Shown here in pieces: positions 862-17,141 of a stretch of 20,162 nt of DNA. Numbering within the stretch: the first letter of the stretch is position 1; each line of letters opens with the position of its first letter. The DNA is from a virus, in IMG/VR virus record IMGVR_UViG_3300010885_068551, positions 1 through 20,162 of that record; one strand, given 5' to 3'. Below the pieces are notes generated by a model. That model made no database searches. It was given only the letters and a program-made list of their open reading frames with translations, and was not told the DNA's origin. Both the position numbers and the translations under genes were made by a program.

Positions 862-1542
862 ATGAGCAAAATCAAAAGACCCAAGTTTGAGGATTGTTTA
901 GATATAATTAATCAAGAGATTTTAAAAAGAAAATCTAAATGGAACTTATCTTCAATAGCTTGGATGGACTTTGATGATGTCTCCCAAATCATAAGAATAC
1001 ATATTCATCAAAAGTGGAAGCAGTATAATCCTGAAAAATCGCTGCAACCCTGGATTAGTATCATCATTACCAATCAAATTAGAAACTTAGTTAGAAATCA
1101 TTATACAAACTACGCAAGACCTTGTTTGAGGTGTGATGCCGCAGTTGATTCAGATGGCTGCAAGATTTATAAAGAGCAATGTGATGCATGTCCATTGTAC
1201 GCCCACTGGAAAAAAAATAAACAACCTGCCACTTTTGTAAAACTGCCCCTCTCAATAGAAAACCACAGCAATGAAGTTTTTGAAATGTCTGGAAATTCAA
1301 ACTATGCAGAAGGTGATGAGCAGAAACTTCATGAAGCAATGAAAAAGATTTTAAAGCCAATTGAATATACTGTTTACAAAGGCTTATATATAGACAATAA
1401 AGAAGAAGCTGATGTTGCCAAGAGTTTAGGTTTCATTTCTAATGAAAAAGGCCGTGCCCCAGGATATCGCCAATTAAAGAATATCCAAAAATCAATTATA
1501 ATCAAGGCTAAAAAACACATAGAAGAACAAGGATTAGATTAG
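862..1542 (+). CDS. Sigma-70-like factor with Cys-rich insert, putative late sigma factor
   Basis: The 226-aa product has the layout of a small alternative sigma factor. Residues about 36-85 resemble sigma region 2 (DFDDVSQIIRIHIHQ, then PWISIIITNQIRNLVRNHY), the part that binds the -10 element and core polymerase. Residues about 165-220 resemble region 4, a helix-turn-helix (EYTVYKGLYI, then ADVAKSLGF, then a basic helix). Between them lies a Cys-rich insert: Cys88-x2-Cys91, Cys100, and Cys107-x2-Cys110, likely a zinc site. The expected job is directing host RNA polymerase to phage promoters, as T4 gp55 does for late genes. The gene sits between a zinc-ribbon gene and the packaging genes, 1 bp before the next start, and lacks a clear Shine-Dalgarno site. 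The sigma assignment rests on motif reading; a diverged DNA-binding regulator is the alternative. Confidence 0.72.
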   Translation: MSKIKRPKFEDCLDIINQEILKRKSKWNLSSIAWMDFDDVSQIIRIHIHQKWKQYNPEKSLQPWISIIITNQIRNLVRNHYTNYARPCLRCDAAVDSDGCKIYKEQCDACPLYAHWKKNKQPATFVKLPLSIENHSNEVFEMSGNSNYAEGDEQKLHEAMKKILKPIEYTVYKGLYIDNKEEADVAKSLGFISNEKGRAPGYRQLKNIQKSIIIKAKKHIEEQGLD

Positions 1543-1543
1543 T

Positions 1544-2647
1544 ATGGAAATTGCTCAAGAAGCGTTGACCCCCGAACAAGAGAAATTGGTCTTGGAGCTT
1601 TGGAATAAAAACCCCAATAGCCCTCCAGGATTAAAAGAATTAACCCAAGGAATTTTTGGCGGCGAATATGATGGCAGAAGCTGGCAAGGCAGAGTCATCA
1701 AAGCTTTCCTTGCAAAATGTAATTTAAAAGCCAAGGCTTCTAGCGATTACTCTTCCAAAACTCAAGAAATTGTTTTAACTGAAGATCAAAAACAGTATAT
1801 TATTAATAATGCTTCTACCATGACTTCATTAGACATGGCCAAGATATTATTTAACAACAATAACTTAACAAATCTTAATGCAGAGACCCGCGTTGTTAAT
1901 GAATTTACAAAAACCTTAGAGGGCAGAGTCATTTACAATCAGGCACAGAATGAAGATGTGCCCACCGAAAATTATCAACCCCCCGCCACCATTGATAAAG
2001 TCTTAAGAAGAGTTAATAAGTATGTAAACTCCACCCTAGACAAAGACAAATTAAACGCCAAGCAAAAAAAGGGTTTAGAAATGTTGATTAACTATCTCCA
2101 TACTTACCGCTTCATTAGACAAATGAATACTTTTGAAAGTCAAGAAGATAGGAATCTTTGTGAAGACTCTTTTATCCGTTACACCTACGATAAGCCAGAT
2201 TTAACCCAAGAAGAAATTGACCAATATATAGAATTATCCAATCAAACTGTGCGCAGCTTTAGTATCAAAAGAAGAAGTGAGTTGATGCAAGCAAGACTAG
2301 AAGAATTTACTACTGCCGATCCAGAGTCAATGAAAGTTTCTATGGGATTGGTGGAAGCAATTGGTAAAGCTGGAACAGAGTATGACCAATGTTTAAAAAG
2401 ATGCAATGACCTCCTTGATGACCTTAAGGAAAAAAGGAGCACGCGCCTTTCTAAACAAATCAAAGAGAATGCTTCTATCTTAAATCTTGTTGAAGATTGG
2501 CGCAATGAAGAACAAAGAATAAAGATGTTAAAATTGGGCGAGCTAGAACAGATTGCCATAGCTAATGAAGTTGAAAAACTCACAAGCATGGCAGAAATTA
2601 AAGCAAGAATTTTGGGTTTAGATAGGGATTCAATTTTATATGGATAA
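1544..2647 (+). CDS. Helical protein of unknown function, candidate small terminase subunit
   Basis: The 367-aa, mostly helical, charged, soluble product is not a family I recognise with confidence. Residues about 77-115 (LTEDQKQYIINN, then SLDMAKILFNNN) could form a helix-turn-helix. The C-terminal third (about 255-360) is rich in Glu, Lys and Leu with heptad-like spacing, suggesting coiled coil and oligomerisation. A DNA-binding N-terminus plus an oligomerising helical core, two genes before the large terminase, fits a small terminase subunit that recognises phage DNA and stimulates packaging. It is longer than typical small terminases (often 100-200 aa), so the assignment is tentative. AAGGA at 1529-1533 is a plausible ribosome-binding site. 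Its end overlaps the next gene by 8 bp, indicating translational coupling with the nuclease and terminase genes. Confidence 0.6.
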   Translation: MEIAQEALTPEQEKLVLELWNKNPNSPPGLKELTQGIFGGEYDGRSWQGRVIKAFLAKCNLKAKASSDYSSKTQEIVLTEDQKQYIINNASTMTSLDMAKILFNNNNLTNLNAETRVVNEFTKTLEGRVIYNQAQNEDVPTENYQPPATIDKVLRRVNKYVNSTLDKDKLNAKQKKGLEMLINYLHTYRFIRQMNTFESQEDRNLCEDSFIRYTYDKPDLTQEEIDQYIELSNQTVRSFSIKRRSELMQARLEEFTTADPESMKVSMGLVEAIGKAGTEYDQCLKRCNDLLDDLKEKRSTRLSKQIKENASILNLVEDWRNEEQRIKMLKLGELEQIAIANEVEKLTSMAEIKARILGLDRDSILYG

Positions 2648-3563
2648 TATAATTTGTAAAGTTTGCGATAAACAATTTGATAATGATGGCGGTCTTCATA
2701 AACATTTGAAGACCCATAAGATGACCCAAACAGAGTACTATCAAAAATTTTATCCTAGACGCGATAGATCTGATGGCTCACTGATTAAATATAAAAATAA
2801 AGAATTTTACTTTAATACAGAATTTAATTCCAAAAACAGTTTAAAAGCTTGGCTTGCATCTGTTGCGCCAATTACCAGAGAAATATACATTAAAGATTTT
2901 CTTCTCAAGAGAAAGCAAAAGAAAAATTTGGTTTATGTACCAACCCAAATTGAACTTAGAACCTTAATGATTCCTGGAATTAAATATATTACTGATCAAC
3001 TTGGTGACTACAATCAATTTTGTCAAAACTTAGGTTTTAAAATCCGATTCTCAAAAAAAGAGCTAAATGAAAAAACTTTTAAAGATATTTCCAAGAAAGT
3101 AATATTTGCTGACTCAAGAGAGCAAAATCCATTAGACTTTGATAACACTACCAGAACCAAAGGTATGAGCTTTGGGGATTATAGAATGGCCAATTCCAAT
3201 ATTTATATTGAGCGCAAAAGCTTAGGAGATGCATGGGGAACATTATCTGGGGGAATTGAAAGATTTGAGCGTGAGATCATTAGAGCTAAAGAGGCTGGGG
3301 CTTATTTAATCATACTGGTAGAGAGCCCATTTGAATCTTTAGAAAAATTTCCTACCCAGAGACAAGTTTATGGCAAAATCAAGATACCCATAGAGTTTAT
3401 TCATCATAATATAAGAGATTTATTACAAAAGTATGAGGGTATCCAATTCTTATTTGTTAAAGATAGGGATGAAGCAAGCAGAATCATTCAAAAAGTATTC
3501 TCTGCCGATGACCAAGTAAAAGATGTTGATCTCCAATACTTGTATGATATAGGAGAATTATGA
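2640..3563 (+). CDS. C2H2 zinc finger fused to ERCC4-type nuclease
   Basis: The 307-aa product opens with a classical C2H2 finger: Cys6/Cys9, a hydrophobic core, then His22 and His26, followed by a MucR-like HKMTQTEYYQKFYP tail. The C-terminal half (about 153-287) carries the ERCC4/XPF nuclease signature: Asp158 in FADSREQNPLDF, GDY at 179-181, and Glu191-Arg192-Lys193 in IYIERKSLGD. This family cuts branched or flap DNA using metal ions at the D..GD..ERK site, and all these residues are present, so it should be active. The gene overlaps its upstream neighbour by 8 bp and the large terminase by 4 bp (ATGA), so the three proteins are probably made together. A role in trimming branched replicating DNA before or during packaging is inferred from this placement; recombination or repair is the alternative. 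AGGG at 2624-2627 may serve as the ribosome-binding site. Confidence 0.88.
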   Translation: MDNIICKVCDKQFDNDGGLHKHLKTHKMTQTEYYQKFYPRRDRSDGSLIKYKNKEFYFNTEFNSKNSLKAWLASVAPITREIYIKDFLLKRKQKKNLVYVPTQIELRTLMIPGIKYITDQLGDYNQFCQNLGFKIRFSKKELNEKTFKDISKKVIFADSREQNPLDFDNTTRTKGMSFGDYRMANSNIYIERKSLGDAWGTLSGGIERFEREIIRAKEAGAYLIILVESPFESLEKFPTQRQVYGKIKIPIEFIHHNIRDLLQKYEGIQFLFVKDRDEASRIIQKVFSADDQVKDVDLQYLYDIGEL

Positions 3564-5434: not shown

Positions 5435-7912
5435 ATGGCTTTTGATTCAACAATAAGAATAAGGCAGATAAATCAATCAGAACTCTCGGGTTTTGTTATT
5501 GGTGCCATTCCCTCTGTCGCCTCTCAAATTTCGGGCAATATAATACCTTCTGGTTCTGGAGTTTATAATTTAGGCTCTCTAACAAATTATTATAAAAATG
5601 TCTATTCTAACGGTATCACACTCCCTTCTGGCAGCGGAATTCAAATTGGAAGTTCTTTCCTTACTGCTTATAGCTCTGGCGGCGCGGGAGTTGTTCAAAT
5701 AGATGGTTATAAAATTACATCTTCTGGAAATTTTATATCTATCCAAGGGCCACAAGGTATTCAGGGGCCAAGTGGAGCAACAGGAGTAACTGGTCCCACG
5801 GGAACAAGTATAACTGGAGCATCTTATAATTCAGGAACTTATAATTTAAGTCTTTATTTTTCTAATGGATATGTAACTGGTTTTTATATACCGCCAATAA
5901 CTGGCCCAACAGGTGTTTCTGTTACTGGATTTTTCCAGAGTGGATCATACATATATCCTCAATTTGATCGTTTTCAAGGGACAGGATTGCCAATTCAATT
6001 GATTGCTGGCCCAGTTGGTCCTCCAGGATCAATTAATTTAAATTTTTATTCTGGAAATAATAGTCATTCATTTAGTCAGGCAAATTTCCCAAATGGAGTT
6101 GTAATAGATCCTTATTATTATACTGGATATTATCCTGATATTTCCTTGATGAGAGGAATGGCTTATACCTTTGATTCTAGTGGATTAGCCACACACATAA
6201 TCACAGAACAAGATACTGGAATATTTGGACTTTTATTTTCTGGACAAACTATTCCATTTAGCGTTGGAGATCCTATTAATTATTATGAAGGAATAAATAA
6301 TGGAACAGGATATTGGAGACCCGTATTTTTTGATAAAAATCAACCAACTGGATTTTTTAATTCAATTAATAATCTTCCTGTTTTCGAGTCTATTGATGCA
6401 ACCAACAATGAAGTTTATTATGACCTTCTTCTAAATAATCTTTATAGAACTAAAATTTCTATTTCAACTGAGTTTACTGCCAAAAATAATTATAAATATG
6501 GTTTCGCTGTTTATACCATTGGTGGCGACACGACAAATGATTATTTAATGACTGGTAGTTCCATCACTGGCTATGCAGTAGTTTGCGGAAATGTTTATGT
6601 TTCTTCTGGAGTTGGTCCTGCTGGACCCAGTGGAGCACAAGGAACTCAAGGAGATCAAGGAATTGTTGGTCCACAAGGCGTGACTGGACCACCAGGAGAA
6701 AGCGTTCAAGGCGTAAGTGTTGTAAGTTTAAACTATGAAAATCCTGGAAACATAAATCCACAAATTCAATTTAATTTGTCTGATGGATCCCAGACAACTT
6801 GGGTTCCACTACCTACTGGTGGGCCATCTGGGGTAGCTGGACCACAGGGACCAATTGGTTCTTTAACCAATTATTTTCGTGGTGAATATTCTAATTCAAA
6901 CACATATATTCAAAATGATACTATCTCTTCTAGTGGTTCATCTTATATAAATACTGGCTCAACAATCATTGGAACTCCCCCACCTACTTCTCCTTGGCAA
7001 ATGCTTGCTCAAAAAGGGGACAAGGGAGATATCGGTGCAACAGGTGCGACAGGATATGCGGATAAATATAGTTCAAATTTTTATGTTGTATCTGGTTTTC
7101 CAACAGGGGCAGGTACTTATGCAAATGGAATCACAGGAATAACTGTCACGGGGTTAAGTTTAAGTGGAATCAATGCTAAATTCACAACTGGGCATCGTGT
7201 TTCTTTTAGAAATACTGGTTTAGTTGGATATAGTTATACCCCTTATCAACAAATCATTGTCTCGACCAATACATATACTGGTTCTTATTTTTATGCATCT
7301 GTTAATTCTTATAATTCCCAAAATGGAACAATTAGTTTCTCTGTCCTAAGTGGGTTATCAAACATTGCCGGTATATTAAACACAACTATAGATGCAAGTA
7401 ATAATATTCTCTGGTATAATTATGGTAATGCAACCATAAATTTAGGCGCTAATATATTGAGCGGCGCCAAAGGGGATCAAGGTATTCAAGGACCAAAAGG
7501 CGACCCTGGCACTCCACAAGCCTTAAGAAACACATCATATATTTTGAATTATAATTTAGAAGGGGGAGATTCTATTGTTCTTCCCACATCTTTATATGAT
7601 GTATTTAGCATTTTAATTACTGGCGTTCAAACCTATGGAAATACAAGTGCTGGAATAAATTTAGACTGGGCTAATTTTCAAACTGGTCAATCTGTTATAT
7701 TAAAAATAAGGAATAGTGGTGTAATTTATGGAAACGCCGCAGAAGGTAAATTGTTTACATTCTCGGGTGCAGCTTATAATAATATAAAATGGCCAGCTGG
7801 AACTTATTCTTGCCCAGACAAAGGGCAAGCGTATATTTATACATTATTGAGGTTCCCTGATGAGACGGGCAGCACATCATGTTATGGGACATACTCTAAT
7901 CCATATTATTAA
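5435..7912 (+). CDS. Collagen-like phage fibre protein
   Basis: The 825-aa product is a modular fibre. The N-terminus (about 40-80) has a YNLGSLTNYYKNVYSNGI motif of the kind found near attachment or trimerisation regions of phage fibres. Seven short Gly-X-Y collagen-like segments follow, near residues 105-125, 157-165, 192-199, 392-426, 463-476, 528-540 and 677-693. They are separated by Gly/Ser/Tyr-rich beta domains. Residues about 480-524 (FRGEYSNSNTY to SPWQMLAQ) resemble a CBM5/12-like aromatic module often found just before collagen repeats. The C-terminal domain has two cysteines (793 and 816) in a compact tip. Such proteins form trimeric fibres on the virion surface, likely for adhesion. 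No enzymatic motif is visible. Its position between terminase and portal is unusual, and head-fibre as well as tail-fibre roles are possible. Confidence 0.88.
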   Translation: MAFDSTIRIRQINQSELSGFVIGAIPSVASQISGNIIPSGSGVYNLGSLTNYYKNVYSNGITLPSGSGIQIGSSFLTAYSSGGAGVVQIDGYKITSSGNFISIQGPQGIQGPSGATGVTGPTGTSITGASYNSGTYNLSLYFSNGYVTGFYIPPITGPTGVSVTGFFQSGSYIYPQFDRFQGTGLPIQLIAGPVGPPGSINLNFYSGNNSHSFSQANFPNGVVIDPYYYTGYYPDISLMRGMAYTFDSSGLATHIITEQDTGIFGLLFSGQTIPFSVGDPINYYEGINNGTGYWRPVFFDKNQPTGFFNSINNLPVFESIDATNNEVYYDLLLNNLYRTKISISTEFTAKNNYKYGFAVYTIGGDTTNDYLMTGSSITGYAVVCGNVYVSSGVGPAGPSGAQGTQGDQGIVGPQGVTGPPGESVQGVSVVSLNYENPGNINPQIQFNLSDGSQTTWVPLPTGGPSGVAGPQGPIGSLTNYFRGEYSNSNTYIQNDTISSSGSSYINTGSTIIGTPPPTSPWQMLAQKGDKGDIGATGATGYADKYSSNFYVVSGFPTGAGTYANGITGITVTGLSLSGINAKFTTGHRVSFRNTGLVGYSYTPYQQIIVSTNTYTGSYFYASVNSYNSQNGTISFSVLSGLSNIAGILNTTIDASNNILWYNYGNATINLGANILSGAKGDQGIQGPKGDPGTPQALRNTSYILNYNLEGGDSIVLPTSLYDVFSILITGVQTYGNTSAGINLDWANFQTGQSVILKIRNSGVIYGNAAEGKLFTFSGAAYNNIKWPAGTYSCPDKGQAYIYTLLRFPDETGSTSCYGTYSNPYY

Positions 7913-7917
7913 AATTT

Positions 7918-10059
7918 ATGAAAAAGAAGACAAAAAATATTGAAAACTTACAAATGACTGGCTCTCATGCTGCTAGCTCATCTTTAGATAAGAAGAAGAG
8001 TATTAAAAAGAGCAAATCAGTATTGCCCGAAATGATTTCCGAAGCCTCAACTTCACCCAGCGGGGGCATGAGAAGAGATGCGGCGGGGTCAATTGAAAGA
8101 ACAGACCGATTTAAAAATATTGATGATGGTCTTGTTCCTTTCCGTAACTCTAATGCTATTTATGGACCAAATCAATCTGCTGTAGATATCCGTGACGCAG
8201 TAATTCTTTGTCAAAAGTGTTATTATAATTTTGCTCTTTTTAGAAACATTATTGATTTAATGACTGAATTTTCAATTGATGATATTTACTATAAAGGCGG
8301 GAATAAACAATCCAGAGCTTTCTTTGATGCCCTCTTTAAGAAAATAAATATTTGGGATCTGCAAGATAAATTTTTCCGTGAATATTATCGTAGTGGCAAT
8401 GTATTTATTTACCGCTTTGATGCTGATGTTGAAGCAAAAGATATTAAGAAGCTTATTCAAAGTGTTGCCGCCAAGAAAGAAATTGGTAATCCAGTAATGG
8501 ATCAAAATCAACCACTCTTAACAAACAAAGATAAAATTAAAGGCGACCCCGCTTTAGATAATGGAGATCAAATGGGTTATCCTACTGGTTATCCAAAAGG
8601 TCAAAGTGGCAACAATAATCCACTACTTGATGATGTTCCAATGAAATTGGAAGTGGAGCCAATGAAAATGCCGGCTAGATATATTATTTTAAATCCTGCT
8701 GATATTAACATGTTAGGAACTGCTAATTTTTCTTATGGTATTTATTATAAAGTTTTAACGGAGTATGAAGTTTCAAGACTTCGCAATCTTCAAACAGAAG
8801 AAGATATTGAAGTATTTAATAGTTTACCTAAATTTACACAAGACCAGATTAAGGCTGGTGTTCGCAGTGTTTATATCCCTCTTGATACAAAAAAGGTAAA
8901 AATTGTCTTTTATAAAAAACAAGACTATGAACCATTTTCTGTACCCATGGGATTTCCAGTTCTTGAAGATATTAATGCCAAGATTGAAATGCGCCGAATT
9001 GATATGGCAATCACAAGGACTATGCAACAGATTGTGCTTCTTGTTACTGCTGGGACTGAACCAGATAAGGGTGGAATCAATCAAAAACATTTAGAAGCTT
9101 TAAAAAATATCTTTACCAATCAATCAGTTGGCAGAGTATTAGTTGCCGATTACACTACCGAAGCTGAATTTATTGTTCCTAAGATTGCAGAATTACTTGA
9201 CCCCAAAAAATATGAGATTATTGATAGGGACATTAATATTGGACTTAACAATGTATTCATGGGCGGGGAAAAGTTTGCTAATCAACAACAAAAGATGGAT
9301 GTCTTTGTTAAGCGTTTGGAGCAGGCAAAAATGGCTTTCTTAAATCACTTCTTGATTCCAGAAATGAAACGCATTGCAAAATCATTAAATTTCAAAAGCT
9401 GTCCTGTACCATATTATGATCAACAAAACTTTACTGATGATGTTGCTTATACCAAAATTTATTCTCATTTGATTGATATTGGCATCTTGACTCCTGAACA
9501 AGGAATTGAAGCCATTCAGACCAATCGTCTTCCTGAAGCTGATACAGAAGAAATGATGGAAAAGCAAAAAGAATATAAGAAAATGCGCGACCAAGGTCTT
9601 TATACTCCATTAATTGGGGGACAAAAGCAACAGGGTCCAGGAGCAAATCCTCTTGGCGGCGCCGGAAGACCAGGGGGTTCAACTGGCATAAAACAAACTA
9701 CCAAGAATATATCTCCAATAGGTTCTAAGGCTAAAGAAGAGCCTAAGATTAATTTTAGTCTTTCTAAACTAAAAGATAATATGGTATTAGCTCAAGATGT
9801 TGAAAAAGAGATATCTTCATTTTTAAAAAAGAAACATAAAATAAAGAAACTTTCTGACCAGCAGTTAGCTGTAGCCTCTGAAATCCTTAATGTTATTATT
9901 GCAAATGAAAACCCAGAAAATTGGGTCAATGCTATTAAGGAATATTGCGAAAACCCAATTGATAAAAACCAAGATAGAGTAAATCAAGTTTTAGCTGTGG
10001 CTGCTGAACACCAAGTTGACAATTATATGGCTGGATTACTTTACTCTAGCAAAAAGTAA
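7918..10059 (+). CDS. Portal protein
   Basis: The 713-aa product is the head portal, a ring at one capsid vertex through which DNA is packaged and the tail attaches. Support comes from position after the large terminase and portal-like blocks: YNFALFRNIIDLMTEFS near 101-117, KFFREYYRSGNVFIYRF near 151-167, and FMGGEKFANQQQKMDVF near 446-462, as in T4 gp20-like and related large-phage portals. The Lys/Ser-rich N-terminus (1-75) and a Gly/Asn/Pro-rich insert (about 193-240) look disordered. A Gly/Gln-rich linker (about 567-595) leads to an extra helical C-terminal domain (about 615-713). No Shine-Dalgarno site is visible in the 5-bp gap after the fibre gene, whose last 20 bases contain no G, so re-initiation or an SD-independent start is likely. 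Confidence 0.92.
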   Translation: MKKKTKNIENLQMTGSHAASSSLDKKKSIKKSKSVLPEMISEASTSPSGGMRRDAAGSIERTDRFKNIDDGLVPFRNSNAIYGPNQSAVDIRDAVILCQKCYYNFALFRNIIDLMTEFSIDDIYYKGGNKQSRAFFDALFKKINIWDLQDKFFREYYRSGNVFIYRFDADVEAKDIKKLIQSVAAKKEIGNPVMDQNQPLLTNKDKIKGDPALDNGDQMGYPTGYPKGQSGNNNPLLDDVPMKLEVEPMKMPARYIILNPADINMLGTANFSYGIYYKVLTEYEVSRLRNLQTEEDIEVFNSLPKFTQDQIKAGVRSVYIPLDTKKVKIVFYKKQDYEPFSVPMGFPVLEDINAKIEMRRIDMAITRTMQQIVLLVTAGTEPDKGGINQKHLEALKNIFTNQSVGRVLVADYTTEAEFIVPKIAELLDPKKYEIIDRDINIGLNNVFMGGEKFANQQQKMDVFVKRLEQAKMAFLNHFLIPEMKRIAKSLNFKSCPVPYYDQQNFTDDVAYTKIYSHLIDIGILTPEQGIEAIQTNRLPEADTEEMMEKQKEYKKMRDQGLYTPLIGGQKQQGPGANPLGGAGRPGGSTGIKQTTKNISPIGSKAKEEPKINFSLSKLKDNMVLAQDVEKEISSFLKKKHKIKKLSDQQLAVASEILNVIIANENPENWVNAIKEYCENPIDKNQDRVNQVLAVAAEHQVDNYMAGLLYSSKK

Positions 10060-10060
10060 A

Positions 10061-10813
10061 ATGTCATTTGGAACGTTTACCCTATTTAATTTTTATCAAC
10101 AGCCGAATACTGGAGTAACGCCACTGCGTTCAAGTTTGTCTGCTGAGGATATCAATTCTATTGTAAATGGATTGGGGCGTCCTGGCAAAGTGGCCGATTT
10201 TAATTGGCCATTTCCATACGCTGGGACAAATATTCCAGTTCAACTTATTGAGGGTGGAGGAGCATTATTTACTGTACCACTATTATCTGATTCAGATATT
10301 GGATTGAGACATGCTTTTGTTGAATCAATTTTTTATGGATCTTTTACTGGGCAGATTGAATATAATTATTATAAAGTTGGGCTTTCTGGAGAGTTTTTTC
10401 CCCAAGATAAAGATTTTAATTTTTATAGAGTAGGTTTTTCTGGCGTTCCAACTGGCAGTCCTCCAGATATAAACCAACATTTAACTATTGTTAGTGGAAA
10501 TATAATTGGGGGACAGCAAGATAACTCTGTATCTATCTTTTTATTCTCTGGAAAATTTGATGATGATTCTCCCGAGATATCTTATTTAAATGATATTTTT
10601 TCAGGTAAAGTAATTAATGATAAACCAGATATTGAAACATCAAAATTTATATTATATGGGAAATTGATTAGGGCAGACTCGGATATTAACAATATTTCTT
10701 ATAATTTTAGTGGTTTTTCTTCTAAAAGTAATATTATTATTAATGACATTATCTTAGAGGATGAAAAAATGATAACTTATGGTTTTAATTCATATTCAAG
10801 TTTTAGAAGTTAA
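10061..10813 (+). CDS. Repeat protein of unknown function, putative virion fibre or spike component
   Basis: The preferred start is the ATG at 10061, one base after the portal stop; an in-frame ATG at 10016 would add 15 residues encoded inside the portal gene. The 250-aa product starts MSFGTFTLFNF. Its first 90 residues form a non-repeat domain with an SAEDINSIVNGLGRPG segment. Residues 93-218 consist of an 18-residue repeat ending in F-S-G or a variant: Gly110, 128, 146, 164, 182, 200 and 218 are exactly 18 apart, and many units carry P-D-I or S-D-I near the middle. An 18-residue period is typical of beta-solenoid coils or stacked beta-hairpins, suggesting an elongated rod. It lacks signal peptide and catalytic motifs. 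Between portal and two large putative adhesins, it is probably a virion fibre, connector or chaperone of those proteins; the function is not recognised. Confidence 0.78.
   Translation: MSFGTFTLFNFYQQPNTGVTPLRSSLSAEDINSIVNGLGRPGKVADFNWPFPYAGTNIPVQLIEGGGALFTVPLLSDSDIGLRHAFVESIFYGSFTGQIEYNYYKVGLSGEFFPQDKDFNFYRVGFSGVPTGSPPDINQHLTIVSGNIIGGQQDNSVSIFLFSGKFDDDSPEISYLNDIFSGKVINDKPDIETSKFILYGKLIRADSDINNISYNFSGFSSKSNIIINDIILEDEKMITYGFNSYSSFRS
10337..10714 (+). repeat. 54-bp (18-residue) in-frame tandem repeat, about seven units
   Basis: In the gene starting at 10061, units end at Gly110, 128, 146, 164, 182, 200 and 218, six consecutive steps of exactly 18 codons. An imperfect first unit from Gly93 is one residue shorter. 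Loose consensus: S-G-K/E, hydrophobic, two or three polar residues, P/S-D-I, four or five polar residues, then a hydrophobic pair before F-S-G. The DNA copies have diverged strongly, so the period is kept at protein level, which indicates structural selection and old duplication. Confidence 0.85.
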
Positions 10814-10840: not shown

Positions 10841-13800
10841 ATGAATGCAAGTATAAACTGTGGATTAAAGGGCGCTTATAAAGTTGAATTATTTAGCGGC
10901 GCAGGAAAAAATAGGAAATTAGTTGAGGAAACTGATTGGTTTTCTAATGATATTACCAATTATGGATTGAATTATCCATTTACTTATCCCTTTGCTAGGT
11001 GCTTTATGTTTCTTTCTTTAGGTTCTGGCGCAGGAGGAAATGCTCATCCTAATAGACAAAAATCAACAGGTTTATATCAACCCATCTCATCTTTTTGGGC
11101 CTATGATCCAATAAATGGTAGTTATCGTCAAACTGGTCAATATATAGGTTGGCAAGGTTATGAAATCGGTGGCCCACACAATGGTGATTTTGATGGCACT
11201 TTTTCTTCTGCCTGTGGAACTAAATTCACAGCAAATGGCGTAAATTTATATAGAGGCTGGACCATTCCAACTGGAGCAATTGAGAATGGAACTGTGATGG
11301 GAGAAACATTAAATATAGAAGGATTTATGACTTCTCCTTCTAGTGGAATAGATACAACAGGAAATTTAGCTTTTAGCTTGGTAGACAGATCTATTCAAAT
11401 ACCTTCAGGATATACTGCAACAGTTACTTATCAATTAAGTTTGAATTTTTTAAACTATGCAAATTATCAAACATTTGCTAGTACAGGCGGCTATAATCCA
11501 AGTGGATATTTTGATACTGGCAAAGCGGCAACAGGAACACTGATTCCTGGTTCTGAATTGCCTTTGTTAAGTGGCTGGAGCCGTTTGTCTGGTATTTATC
11601 GTCAAATTTTCCCTGCGGTGCAATTTATTGATGCTATGGGCGCATGTGTTGTATCTCCTTTGGGTGATCAATTGGAGCCTTCTTACACAGACTGTAAAAA
11701 ACTTTATTTTTACATGACCCCAGATATTTCTCAGTTTTCTGTTAGTAAATTTGGTTCCACTGACGTTTCTGAGCTTTCATCTTATCAGTCTACAGGCTTA
11801 ATGGCTAATTATACTGACTTTGTTACTAAAGTGGGAGGAACATTAAATATTCACAGCGATAGTGAAATCTCTTTTCCTAATGAACCATACAAATGGTATT
11901 ATGGCGGAGATTCTGCTAAAACAGCAAAAGTTATTCAAGAACCTACCCTATCCAATATCCGATTAGAAAATCTTTTGCCAATAAATGATTATGCTTCTGG
12001 TCCAATATTAAAAGATACTTTTACATACCAAGACAAGGGATATGTATCTCCTATTTTATCTAAGCAGCCAATTGCCTTTGCTACCCCAGGAAAACCAATT
12101 GACCCAAATTATGCAGATTATGGTCAAAAAGCAGTTTATTCTTCTTATTTAAAAAGATTAGCTATTGATACAGCAGTTTTATCAACTGGAGCTTTAGGAA
12201 TTTCAAACAGAAATAAAACAGCAACAAAAAGAGCCCTCTTCTCTCCAATTCAAAGTGCGGGTACAAATACTAGATTTGGCAGTTTGACTTTGGCTTATCT
12301 TTCTACTGCTGGGAGTGTAGGAGATTTAATTTTTGAGCCATATGTAGATTTTCTTTTCTTTGATTCTTCGGGCAGAGGAGCAGATATGCCCCATTATCGT
12401 TACATCCCTGATATTTATCTAGCAGAGAGAGGTAGTGGAGTTGCAAATGCATTTCTTTCTATAGTTGGGCAGGACTCAAATATACCAAGTTCTGTAAAAA
12501 GATTTGCTTCAGGACAATTATTTATGGGCCCAGGAGGAATTACTAGCGGGATAGATATAACAAATCCCTTATTTACAACACTTGTTCCAGGTACTATAAA
12601 TCAATATTCTGGATATTTTTTACCAGGGAGCAGTTCAAGTCAATATGCTCCAGGAACTGGATACAGCCAAAAAATAATAGGATATGATGAAAATGACAAT
12701 CCCATTTGGAATCCTGCAACTATTGGATGGGGAACAGTTTATGGAGTACTTGCAGACAAATATTTTTATGATCAAGCTATTGATATAGCTCTAATTGAAA
12801 ATAAAACTTGGAATGGACAAACCTGGGCAAATAATTTTTCTTCTAATGGCGGAATTCCAAATCCAACTGGAGAAAATTTATTCTGGTTAAATACTGGAAA
12901 CATTTTAAGGGCGAGTATTTCTAATGTATCGTATTATGATCCATATATTGGAAATTTTCTTGATACTAATGATTATTTTTCTAATATCGGTGTCCAATTA
13001 ATTCAAGATGCAATATATAAAAGTGGAGATTATACAAACGACTTAACCCAAATAGATACAGATAGAATTGGCAATGGTGGTTATGGATTTATTTTTGTTA
13101 CTGGTTCTGGAGTGCCAATAACTATAAATAGAGTTTTAACAAATGACACTTCAATTTGGCCCCAATCATTAATTGATTCTTTGAGTGGAGCTTTAATTGG
13201 GGGATCTTCATTAAATGGTAAAAAATTGCCTCTTGTTATTGATAGCCAGCCAACTTATATTCAACTAATGGGAATAGGCACAGATTTAACAGCAAGAGGG
13301 TATGGTCAAAATTTATTAGGAACCGATATTTCTAATGGAAATTTAATTTCTTCTGGTTTTGGTCCAACAATAAATGTGAATACTGGAGTATATTTAGCTA
13401 TAGGCAGAATAGATCCATATACTTATATCAGTCGCGCATATAGTTCATCTTTACCAGCAATTGGTAGCGGAAAATATTATAGTATCACTGGAATGAGTGG
13501 TAGATATAAAAATGTTTCTAATAATTTGGTTAATTTTAATCTAGTTGATGTTATTCAATCAAATGGACAACAGATTTATTTATCTACTGGAGACTACTAT
13601 GGGGATCCCTTTGTAGCTGATGGTACTTATGTTTCTGGTTTAATAAATATTACTGATTTGCAAACAGCTTTTAATACAAGTTCCAGCTTTATTGAAAATG
13701 GTTTACTCCCTTATTTTCCTCTTTATTTATATGAAGAGGGAGTTGGTAATATAAAAAATATTCCTTTGTCTTTTAATGGAGATAATAATAGTTATGCATA

Positions 13801-14851
13801 TATTTCTCAAATTAGTGGAATAACATATAGACCTAATGAAAGTGATTTCTTAGGATACAATGAAAAATGGACACAAGATAGGACAGGTAAATTCTCAATA
13901 AATGTTAATCAGGCTTTTACAAAAAATGTTTCTTTAGTTTATTCTGATGGGACAAATTATTCATTTATTAATAGTGGTGGAAATGCTGCCCCTAATTTTA
14001 CAGCATTTTCAACAGGTAGATATAAAATCCTTTCTGATGCTCATTTATATAATAGTGGAATTGATTTTTTGGTTGGACAACAAGCATCTTCTTATCCAGT
14101 TTATCTTGGTCCGACAGGAGTAAAAACTTTTTCAGATTTAAGTCCTTATGCATTAGCTTATACTGTTAATAGCTCACAAACTGGTATATTTGATTATTAT
14201 ATTGGTTTTGGTGCTTATGTTTACCACGCTCTTAAGAAAACAAAATCTTATAGTACAGAACTTAATGTTGTTTTTGTCGATAGTAATAATAATACAGTTT
14301 ACTCTGGAAAAACTTATTTAGTAGATAATTCAAATTTCTTAAAAAATAGTAAAGGAAAAACGCAATTAGATTTTTCAAAATTAGTTACTTTTTCTTTCGG
14401 GGAAAATGATAATTCAACAAATTTTAATAATATTTATCTTTCTTCTCTTTATGGTATTCAGACATTAACCACAAAAGAAGATTATTTTTATTTTAAATAC
14501 TACGATCCGTTCAATACGGTGCAATTGAAGGATCTTAATAAAACTATAACCACTACAACGACATCAATACTTTATCCATATGTTATTGCTCAACAAAATT
14601 ATTTCAATTTTACTCCAATAACAGGAAATAGTTCTTTCGTCTTAACTCCCACAAGTTTTAAAAAACCATCAGGAATTATTCATCATATTGAGGCTATTAA
14701 TGATTCAGGTCGCAGACTTTTACCAAATTATGCAACCCCAAATAATCAAGGGATAAATTATTATTCTCCAGTAAAAGGAGGATCTTATCCAGGATTAAGT
14801 ACAGAAAACGCAATGGAAATTTATTTTGATTTTAAATGGTCTGGAGGCTAA
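10841..14851 (+). CDS. Large fibre/adhesin-like virion protein, paralog A
   Basis: The 1336-aa product is rich in Gly, Ser, Asn, Tyr and Thr and poor in charge, typical of beta-structured phage fibres and baseplate adhesins. The N-terminal 280-300 residues are homologous to those of the next gene. Shared landmarks include FARCFMFLSLGSG (51-63), Cys125-Gly126, ANGVNLYRGWTIP (131-143), GFMTSPSSG (161-169), a VTYQLSLNF strand (195-203) and LEPS (278-281). A second shared landmark is ATKRALFSP at 461-469. The remaining C-terminal half has no counterpart in the neighbour and no motif I recognise. There is no signal peptide, membrane helix or lytic motif. Probably a structural surface protein, perhaps the main receptor-binding fibre; the family is not recognised. 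It follows a 27-bp leader with GTGTAAT and a weak AAAAAGAA ribosome-binding site. Confidence 0.75.
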   Translation: MNASINCGLKGAYKVELFSGAGKNRKLVEETDWFSNDITNYGLNYPFTYPFARCFMFLSLGSGAGGNAHPNRQKSTGLYQPISSFWAYDPINGSYRQTGQYIGWQGYEIGGPHNGDFDGTFSSACGTKFTANGVNLYRGWTIPTGAIENGTVMGETLNIEGFMTSPSSGIDTTGNLAFSLVDRSIQIPSGYTATVTYQLSLNFLNYANYQTFASTGGYNPSGYFDTGKAATGTLIPGSELPLLSGWSRLSGIYRQIFPAVQFIDAMGACVVSPLGDQLEPSYTDCKKLYFYMTPDISQFSVSKFGSTDVSELSSYQSTGLMANYTDFVTKVGGTLNIHSDSEISFPNEPYKWYYGGDSAKTAKVIQEPTLSNIRLENLLPINDYASGPILKDTFTYQDKGYVSPILSKQPIAFATPGKPIDPNYADYGQKAVYSSYLKRLAIDTAVLSTGALGISNRNKTATKRALFSPIQSAGTNTRFGSLTLAYLSTAGSVGDLIFEPYVDFLFFDSSGRGADMPHYRYIPDIYLAERGSGVANAFLSIVGQDSNIPSSVKRFASGQLFMGPGGITSGIDITNPLFTTLVPGTINQYSGYFLPGSSSSQYAPGTGYSQKIIGYDENDNPIWNPATIGWGTVYGVLADKYFYDQAIDIALIENKTWNGQTWANNFSSNGGIPNPTGENLFWLNTGNILRASISNVSYYDPYIGNFLDTNDYFSNIGVQLIQDAIYKSGDYTNDLTQIDTDRIGNGGYGFIFVTGSGVPITINRVLTNDTSIWPQSLIDSLSGALIGGSSLNGKKLPLVIDSQPTYIQLMGIGTDLTARGYGQNLLGTDISNGNLISSGFGPTINVNTGVYLAIGRIDPYTYISRAYSSSLPAIGSGKYYSITGMSGRYKNVSNNLVNFNLVDVIQSNGQQIYLSTGDYYGDPFVADGTYVSGLINITDLQTAFNTSSSFIENGLLPYFPLYLYEEGVGNIKNIPLSFNGDNNSYAYISQISGITYRPNESDFLGYNEKWTQDRTGKFSINVNQAFTKNVSLVYSDGTNYSFINSGGNAAPNFTAFSTGRYKILSDAHLYNSGIDFLVGQQASSYPVYLGPTGVKTFSDLSPYALAYTVNSSQTGIFDYYIGFGAYVYHALKKTKSYSTELNVVFVDSNNNTVYSGKTYLVDNSNFLKNSKGKTQLDFSKLVTFSFGENDNSTNFNNIYLSSLYGIQTLTTKEDYFYFKYYDPFNTVQLKDLNKTITTTTTSILYPYVIAQQNYFNFTPITGNSSFVLTPTSFKKPSGIIHHIEAINDSGRRLLPNYATPNNQGINYYSPVKGGSYPGLSTENAMEIYFDFKWSGG

Positions 14852-14858
14852 GATAAGT

Positions 14859-17141
14859 ATGCCTGGAATAAATTTAAAATTACAAGGTCAATTCAAATTT
14901 GACATTTATGATTCCAACAAACAATTAATAAAAAGCTCAGAATTCGTCGATAATTTTATCACAAATACTGGGGTTATTTACCCTTATCATTTTGCGTTTG
15001 CTGATTGTTTTAGATATTTAAGTTTAGGTTCTGGATCCTCACAAAACTCTACAGTTAGAAGTGGACCATATTCAACAACAGAGACAACTGGATTATCCAT
15101 TCCAATTCCTAACTTCTCTTATATTGGAGGAAGGAGTAAATTTGATGCTGGAGTAGAAGGCACATACTACTCTATCCCTGGAGATTTTGGGGCAGGATGT
15201 GGTAACATTCAAAACCCTGATGGCGTAAGTTTAGTAAGACAATGGACTTTGCCAGACAATCTTGGCAATACATTTGTTGGGCCATATAATTTTCAGGAAT
15301 TTATGGTTTCTCCTGGTAGACCATATGTAACTGGACAAAAAGTGGGCGATGAAATTCCTCAATTTTGTCACTGTAATGAGAGTGATGATTATGCAACCGG
15401 TTTAGATTGCTCTGCTGTTAGCGAATATTATGATTGGCTGTCTGATAGATATCTTACTAAAAACACAGAAGAAAGATTAAAAATATGCGAAGCTGAAAAA
15501 GCTTTTGCAAGAATACTCTATCCAATTAGTGTTCCAAATAACTCTGTATTAAATGTTACTTATAAATTAAATATTATTTTTGATACAGGAATAAATTTAA
15601 AGTCTCTATACTATAATAATCCAGATAGTAATGATGGTAATTGGACTAATTATTTAAATTCATATAGTAACATTACTCAGCCTGGAATAAAATTAATTAA
15701 TGATGGCACAATTTCTAAATCTCTTGCTCCAAATCTTAATAAAAGACTTCAGCATTATAATTATACTGGACAAGGGAGAAGATATGTTTTTGAAAACGAA
15801 TATGGGGAATCATTTGTGCCTCCAATGGGTGCCCCGCTTGAGCCATCTAATGTTTTCTTTTTGAATGATTTAAACAATCAAAATATTGCAGTATATCTCT
15901 CCAATGATAACACTGAATTTTTGGTAAGCTATTCTGGCGGCGCATTTTCAGAAGATACTGGTTTATATGAACCTTGGAATCAATATCAATATCAAGATAA
16001 TACAGTTTATTCTTATGGAGAAATTGCTTCTAGCGGCGGTGGGAATTACGAATATATTAATCTTGCGCCATCTAATTCCAGGAGATATATTGAGCTTAAC
16101 GATGAAAATTTTTGGCAATTTTCTGGAACATATAATGTTTATCAGCCATGGAATCAATTGACTCTTTATTTTTCTGGGGACATAGTTACTGATCTCTATC
16201 CGACCCCATTTACATCTGGAGGTATATATTATACTTCTGGGGCATTTAAATATATTTCTGGTAGCCCTTCTGCCAATCATCCAATATATGTAAATGGAGA
16301 TTTATCTATAGGGTATTGGAATGAATTTAAACCTTACAGAAATTATCCAACATTTGTGGCTGGAAAAGTAGATTACTACCCTCCCAATCCAGTTGTTGTA
16401 AGTGGAGATCTTGTTCAAGATGATTCTTATTTATTATACAAATGTTTTACTGATGATTACCCCATTGATGGAAAAGTAACTAGACCATTAACAGATACAG
16501 ATTATTGGTCCTATTATGGACAATCACAAATTGTTCACGCTTTTTGGAGTGGAATAAAACCATTTAGAAACGAAAATTCTGCAACTTTATTAAGCTCAGA
16601 ATATTGGACCAAAAATCCTAATAGCTACAACATAAGGAAAAGTGGGGCTTTTTTACCAAACCCAACAGATGTAACACAATCAATTGTCGGTAATATTCCT
16701 AGTTTCGGCGCAACAAAAGTTGGTAAGCCAATTTTTTCCCCAAAATATATAAATAAAATAGACGCATATAATTATGATGGAGTAAGAACTGGACAAGTAG
16801 TTTATACCTATAATTTTTCTAATTATAAAGGAACTAATCCCCTTTATACCAAAAGTTTTGTTGCCGGATACAAAGATATAACCCTACCAGAAGACGACAA
16901 AGACAGTGTTAATATTGTTCCTTTTTTTGATGCAATATTTTCTGGTACTCCTCCAGCAAAGATTTTTGTGCCAACAATGACTACAGGATATGATATTTTA
17001 GGAAATATCAAAGTGACAATAGATGATCCTGGCAGTACAGATAATTTTTATCTAATTAACCAAACCAACTCCCTTTACCCCATTTTTAATAATGTATTAA
17101 CTTGGACTGTGCCATGCCCACCAGGAACAATAGGGTGCTAA
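14859..17141 (+). CDS. Fibre/adhesin-like virion protein with CBM5/12-like modules, paralog B
   Basis: The chosen start is the ATG at 14859, 7 bp after the previous stop and 11 bp after GGAGG at 14843-14847; an in-frame ATG at 14826 would add 11 residues inside the upstream gene. The 760-aa product mirrors paralog A at FADCFRYLSLGSG (47-59), Cys114-Gly115, PDGVSLVRQWTLP (120-132), EFMVSPG (147-153), LEPS (327-330), and ATKVGKPIFSP (618-628). It differs by a Cys-containing insert (about 165-212; Cys170, 172, 184, 210). It also has a block of aromatic modules (about 372-583), with PWNQ at 372-375 and 429-433, G-D-I-V-like turns, and closing YW or FW pairs. Such modules resemble chitin or carbohydrate-binding domains in phage fibres. 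It ends in CPPGTIGC. Glycan binding on the host surface is inferred. No catalytic site is visible. Confidence 0.75.
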   Translation: MPGINLKLQGQFKFDIYDSNKQLIKSSEFVDNFITNTGVIYPYHFAFADCFRYLSLGSGSSQNSTVRSGPYSTTETTGLSIPIPNFSYIGGRSKFDAGVEGTYYSIPGDFGAGCGNIQNPDGVSLVRQWTLPDNLGNTFVGPYNFQEFMVSPGRPYVTGQKVGDEIPQFCHCNESDDYATGLDCSAVSEYYDWLSDRYLTKNTEERLKICEAEKAFARILYPISVPNNSVLNVTYKLNIIFDTGINLKSLYYNNPDSNDGNWTNYLNSYSNITQPGIKLINDGTISKSLAPNLNKRLQHYNYTGQGRRYVFENEYGESFVPPMGAPLEPSNVFFLNDLNNQNIAVYLSNDNTEFLVSYSGGAFSEDTGLYEPWNQYQYQDNTVYSYGEIASSGGGNYEYINLAPSNSRRYIELNDENFWQFSGTYNVYQPWNQLTLYFSGDIVTDLYPTPFTSGGIYYTSGAFKYISGSPSANHPIYVNGDLSIGYWNEFKPYRNYPTFVAGKVDYYPPNPVVVSGDLVQDDSYLLYKCFTDDYPIDGKVTRPLTDTDYWSYYGQSQIVHAFWSGIKPFRNENSATLLSSEYWTKNPNSYNIRKSGAFLPNPTDVTQSIVGNIPSFGATKVGKPIFSPKYINKIDAYNYDGVRTGQVVYTYNFSNYKGTNPLYTKSFVAGYKDITLPEDDKDSVNIVPFFDAIFSGTPPAKIFVPTMTTGYDILGNIKVTIDDPGSTDNFYLINQTNSLYPIFNNVLTWTVPCPPGTIGC
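15972..16607 (+). repeat. Three to four tandem CBM5/12-like modules within the fibre gene
   Basis: Within the gene starting at 14859, residues about 372-422, 430-490 and 492-554 repeat the pattern P-W/Y-N/R, about 12-15 residues, G-x-I/V, a Tyr-rich strand, then Y/F-W plus an aromatic residue near the end. A shorter fourth unit may run from PFRNE (568) to EYW (581-583). Sequence identity between units is low, but the order of aromatic and Gly positions is kept. The pattern resembles chitin-binding-like modules common in phage fibres. Confidence 0.6.

Follow-up and report, generated by a model that had tools for sequence, protein, structure and literature searches.

A repeat protein gene between the portal and fibre genes

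The window, the whole 20,162-nt stretch of viral DNA analysed here, carries at 10061..10813 (plus strand) an open reading frame for a 250-aa repeat protein, which we call R; it was read from the ORF and from an alignment that contains 38 homologues. Its ATG lies 1 base 3’ of the stop codon of the preceding gene (7918..10059, plus strand). The window’s own copy of that gene product, searched alone, gave no portal-family match in PHROGs; 10 of its 22 homologues matched phrog_16240 portal (best portal E-value 2.3e-10), which confirms, by way of the homologues, that R adjoins a portal gene.

Two fibre-type genes follow R on the same strand. B1 (10841..14851) encodes 1336 aa, and its N-terminal domain is of the tail-fibre type (11/14 relatives matched phrog_4176 tail fiber protein); this N-terminal part is conserved and the later part variable. 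B2 (14859..17141) is an N-terminal paralogue of B1, detected by phmmer with the B1 N-terminus (E 3.8e-15). A second B copy was present in 11 of the 12 R-positive records, and the twelfth (G012) stops just past the B1 start. A collagen-like fibre protein gene (5435..7912, plus strand) occupies the interval between terminase and portal, where it is also found in the R-positive loci. The tail-fibre-type domain of B1 and the linkage to fibre genes give R a fibre-like setting, in keeping with the virion rod or fibre shaft suggested in the first-pass annotation.

The conserved backbone runs from a sigma-like gene through o1544, an ERCC4-type nuclease, terminase and portal to a protease-like gene, a decoration candidate and a major capsid protein (MCP) candidate, the last three named from position and size, with no significant family match. 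The first and third of these backbone genes, both upstream of the terminase and conserved in the lineage, encode a Sigma-70 region 2 protein (window 862-1542) and an ERCC4-type nuclease with a zinc finger (window 2640-3563).

R contains eight units of a near-exact 18-residue protein repeat

The repeat array, delimited by the glycine chain and a unit profile, spans residues 85-228 (10313..10744, plus strand) and comprises eight units. Marker glycines occur at residues 93, 110, 128, 146, 164, 182, 200 and 218: a spacing of 17 from the first to the second is followed by six steps of 18, so that the seven glycines from 110 to 218 stand in a row at exact 18-residue intervals. When R was shuffled, seven glycines in regular succession, with every step length from 3 to 39 allowed, arose with a chance of about 0.0002. 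Self-similarity of the protein was highest at lag 18 (z 7.7), with lags 54 and 36 next. A unit profile trained on 226 units, from which the window’s R and the four relatives nearest to it had been left out, located all eight units at the same glycines and gave a tandem score of +77 bits; 2000/2000 shuffles scored -9 or lower.

Direct or tandem repeats were looked for in the DNA and none were found, which indicates that the period is old and maintained at the protein level, and rules out a DNA tandem repeat or recent expansion as its source. The strict protein period with diverged DNA, noticed at first reading, was real, and the span then given for it (10337-10714) is exact, running from the codon of residue 93 to the end of the codon of residue 218.

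R founds a protein family in uncultured phages

The 38 homologues share 14-44% identity, and all lie in uncultured phage contigs. Scanning viral contigs with R yielded four full relatives and one contig that ends after 17 residues; further members were found by using the downstream B1 as bait and reading the gene before it. The resulting alignment (A6) holds 39 members, including the window’s R, with lengths of 203-254 aa. Lag 18 ranked top in most family members. Every member of the close subfamily has an uninterrupted run of 7 or 8 units (spacings 17, 18, 18 and onward), and distant subfamilies show spacing 18 with some 17 and 19. Retention of the 18-residue spacing by most of the 38 homologues is in line with the first-pass annotation. 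Its proposal of a rod or shaft fared less evenly when unit number was compared across relatives: the count proved nearly constant (7-8 in the close subfamily), which speaks against adjustable length, and a variable-length shaft is not favoured.

Isolated weak matches aside, R and its homologues fall into no Pfam, PHROGs or NCBIfam family, in keeping with the initial failure to assign it to a family; R itself matched no fibre family in these library searches. Against annotated phages, tblastn returned no relative except one weak match in Blautia phage Montmirail (E 0.06). A peptide-pattern search of bacterial genomes, which reaches close relatives only, found none, and a search of the available literature found no paper on an 18-residue repeat in phages. 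No solved structure, fibres included, matched R by sequence. The matches that a PDB search did return (pentatricopeptide and the designed ‘Cake’/‘Bagel’ proteins) were rejected as composition matches, no stretch of which passes alone.

The unit suggests one strand and one loop

The unit consensus is h-x-h-x-h-S-G-x-h-[TS]-[GP]-x-x-P-x-D. Across 145 exact units of the family, with positions counted from the marker G, the hydrophobic share was 66, 57, 74 and 80% at -6, -4, -2 and +2; S stood at -1 in 76% and D at +8 in 66%, +4 was mostly G, P or S, and P was common at +6 and +7. These frequencies establish the F-S-G end and mid-unit P-D-I, picked out at first reading, as real features of the unit. 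Judged from sequence, the unit is an amphipathic strand pattern of ~9 residues (h-x-h-x-h-S-G-x-h) joined to a predicted 9-residue loop that carries the fixed D, and the marker glycine falls on the hydrophobic face of the strand.

AlphaFold, run on R with 5 and with 39 sequences, gave low-confidence models that are unusable for the fold because pLDDT reached only 32 and 46; in both models a single strand runs over the SG in several units. Foldseek found no significant match to the low-confidence model. In the strand part, a unit resembled its immediate neighbour more closely than the next unit but one (z 3.7, a value inflated by related rows), which hints at a structural repeat of 18 rather than 36 residues. 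This likeness of neighbours may fit parallel stacking and not a 36-residue hairpin; recent duplication of neighbouring units would explain it equally. Similarity and charge pairing of adjacent units, compared to distinguish a parallel from an antiparallel order, gave no clear antiparallel signal and did not separate the two.

Comparison with known repeat folds

Hydrophobic autocorrelation of R was positive at lags 18 and 36. At lag 9 it was -0.14 in the window’s R and 0.02 in the family. An RTX-type beta-roll is built of nonapeptide repeats, two per 18-residue turn, and was ruled out for R by the missing 9-residue periodicity. The left-handed beta-helix, proposed in the first-pass annotation, has 18 residues per coil, the same length as the R unit, made of three hexapeptides [LIV]-[GAED]-X2-[STAV]-X (PMC3046976). 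R lacks the hexapeptide periodicity (autocorrelation at lags 6 and 12 of -0.08 and 0.00 in the window’s R, and -0.12 and -0.02 in the family) and has one strand-like stretch per unit instead of three; the sequence does not support this fold.

The triple beta-spiral of adenovirus fibre and reovirus sigma1 places hydrophobic residues at c, e, g, k and m with a G/P turn at j, and sigma1 units, taken from residue ranges, average about 16-19 residues (PMC3150272). As in that fold, hydrophobic residues alternate in the R unit, and a predicted strand leads into a turn marked by Gly or Pro. When -6, -4 and -2 are read as c, e and g, k (+2) holds a hydrophobic residue in 80% of units; unlike the spiral, m (+4) holds one in only 4% (G, P or S stands there), and the R glycine falls at i, one place ahead of j. 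The match to the published consensus (PMC3150272) thus covers four of six places, too few for us to assign R to it. Another fibre fold, the beta-bracelet of Orsay virus delta, has five-residue strands and three-residue loops with the consensus (L/V)x2Vx4V (PMC7565637). Both proteins repeat short strands (predicted in R) joined via loops, but the 18-residue unit of R is unlike the short bracelet unit.

That R represents a new fibre-shaft or solenoid fold, in which each 18-residue unit adds one strand to a parallel stack about a ladder of glycines and the whole serves the lineage as an exposed adhesion rod, strikes us as rather doubtful.

R and B1 are inherited together

R and B1 were always together or both absent: 108 R-positive loci (duplicates counted) held both, and no locus held one alone. 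For comparison we used 42 portal loci that lack R and extend over 3 kb past the portal. Those R-positive loci that were recovered with B1 as bait form an ascertained set; 80 loci recovered with the portal alone do not, and show the same pattern, with R in five, B in 5/5 of these, and B absent from every R-less locus with over 3 kb downstream. R was single-copy in 12/12 R-positive records.

In R-positive loci the portal is preceded by the collagen-like gene, which separates it from the terminase, and is followed by R-B1-B2. In R-less loci the collagen-like gene was not detected, and other genes, many of them fibre-like, follow the portal. On the portal tree the presence of R required 2 changes, against 28.8 in shuffles. 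R is therefore best regarded as an inherited lineage trait, and the same comparison rules out a freely swapped adhesin cassette.

An N-terminal motif of the collagen-like gene, IRIRQINQSELSGF, recurs in the post-portal fibre genes of R-less relatives, the form common to both being I-R-x-x-Q-x-x-x-x-E-L-S-G-F; because of this recurrence, the collagen-like gene may have switched sides of the portal.

A conserved N-terminus and a fast-changing body

Between the window and its relative L010, R was the most diverged of 11 genes. Core genes were 74-96% identical (terminase 95%, MCP candidate 93%, portal 87%), and identity fell to 63% for the collagen-like protein, 50% for B2, 47% for B1 and 40% for R. 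The corresponding dN was 0.70 for R and 0.03 for terminase at similar dS, a contrast that is rough because dS is near saturation. R evolves under purifying selection, with dN/dS of 0.09-0.26 in 7/7 homologue pairs.

Divergence within R is uneven. Among 13 close homologues, residues 1-22 (10061..10126, plus strand), a candidate anchor, had a mean pairwise identity of 0.68; they read MSFGTFxLFNFYQQPNTG, and other subfamilies begin MGxPxNxLQ. A second conserved segment, residues 41-60 (10181..10240, plus strand), includes VADFNWPFPYAG and had a mean pairwise identity of 0.57. The repeats and the C-terminus are not conserved: repeat strands without the SG averaged 0.23 and loops 0.24 in the close homologues. 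In two close pairs, dN of the repeat region was 4.6 and 12 times that of the N-terminus. Exposed phage parts that face a host or partner typically combine a conserved base with a variable body in this way, amid other fibre genes that vary. R displays two properties sought in a fibre-apparatus protein, a conserved anchor with a fast-changing distal part and linkage with fibre genes (always with B1).

A probable component of the fibre or adhesion apparatus

Mainly because of this conserved base and variable body within a variable fibre gene set, we lean towards reading R as a virion protein of the fibre or adhesion apparatus that is anchored by its conserved N-terminus and whose beta-repeat body keeps its length but evolves fast, a reading to which we give somewhat better than even chances. 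We infer the location in the virion from gene order and evolution. The N-terminus would dock on the neck, the fibre base or another conserved part of the virion, and the repeats would form a beta-rod or sheet that is short and probably oligomeric, in which the glycine column would let successive strands pack tightly and the turn would be set by the D/P loop. Contact with the host surface, or with a variable partner such as B1, would explain why the exposed face varies.

T-even gp38-type adhesins are about 250 aa long, with a conserved N-terminus, glycine-marked repeats and a fast-changing body, and are encoded beside a large fibre gene. R shares all of these traits, including the adjoining large fibre gene. 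It differs in having single glycines at fixed spacing in strand-like stretches where the gp38 type has glycine-rich motifs, in a loop length that hardly varies, and in a gene that precedes that of the large protein.

The small size of R and its adjacency to the portal also fit a head-neck or assembly role. A portal-binding protein that bears the fibres without itself contacting the host (a collar, a connector or the base of a neck whisker) would account for the one-base gap to the portal gene, the fixed size, the conserved N-terminus and the position between portal and B1/B2 in every R-positive lineage (a tubulin-like gene sometimes intervening). However, relatives with the same portal family lack R, so portals of this family can do without it as a connector, and its repeat body is the fastest-changing part of the operon, which would be unusual in a connector; we consider such a role unlikely. 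A role outside the virion, as a chaperone or assembly factor for B1/B2 comparable to the small proteins encoded beside tail-fibre genes, appears less likely again: R is small and strictly linked to B1 and B2, but that linkage can be explained without a chaperone-client pair, and fixed-period beta-strand repeats with a fast-changing body are atypical of chaperones. Least probable, and by our estimate very improbable, is a non-structural protein whose repeat is unrelated to the virion; the unannotated family and the indirect placement in the virion leave room for it, and it sits poorly with the fixed place of R inside the head/fibre operon in all R-positive loci and with its co-occurrence with B1 and the collagen-like gene.

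R defines a so far unlisted phage protein family spanning about 40 uncultured viruses, and its clean, alignable repeat is suited to structure work. Should R prove to be an exposed rod or adhesin, as the fibre-apparatus reading would have it, it would offer a handle on host attachment in a widespread uncultured phage lineage, and its strand-per-18-residue repeat may join the known fibre folds.

Other genes in the lineage

A search of 14 records, of which many are fragments, turned up no member of the tail-sheath family. A tubulin/FtsZ-like gene directly follows the portal in several lineages, some with R and some lacking it (L141:4094-5257 and L176:4026-5252; also L133, L120, L035, L072, L085, L087 and L088); the L141 copy matched Pfam Tubulin (E 8e-9) and, weakly, PhuZ in PHROGs. 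Homing-endonuclease-like genes, GIY-YIG-type and HNH-type by eye, lie between R and B1 at L117:3607-4395 and L122:4351-4953. Shortly after the portal of one R-less relative, a long repeat protein (L017:10137-11375) has the look of a YadA head (STIGGGxxNxAxG). A fibre-like gene of another R-less relative (L018:3343-5202) carries a different 18-residue repeat, YINNLSGDFxxTGxxLNx, which is probably a coiled coil and unrelated to that of R.
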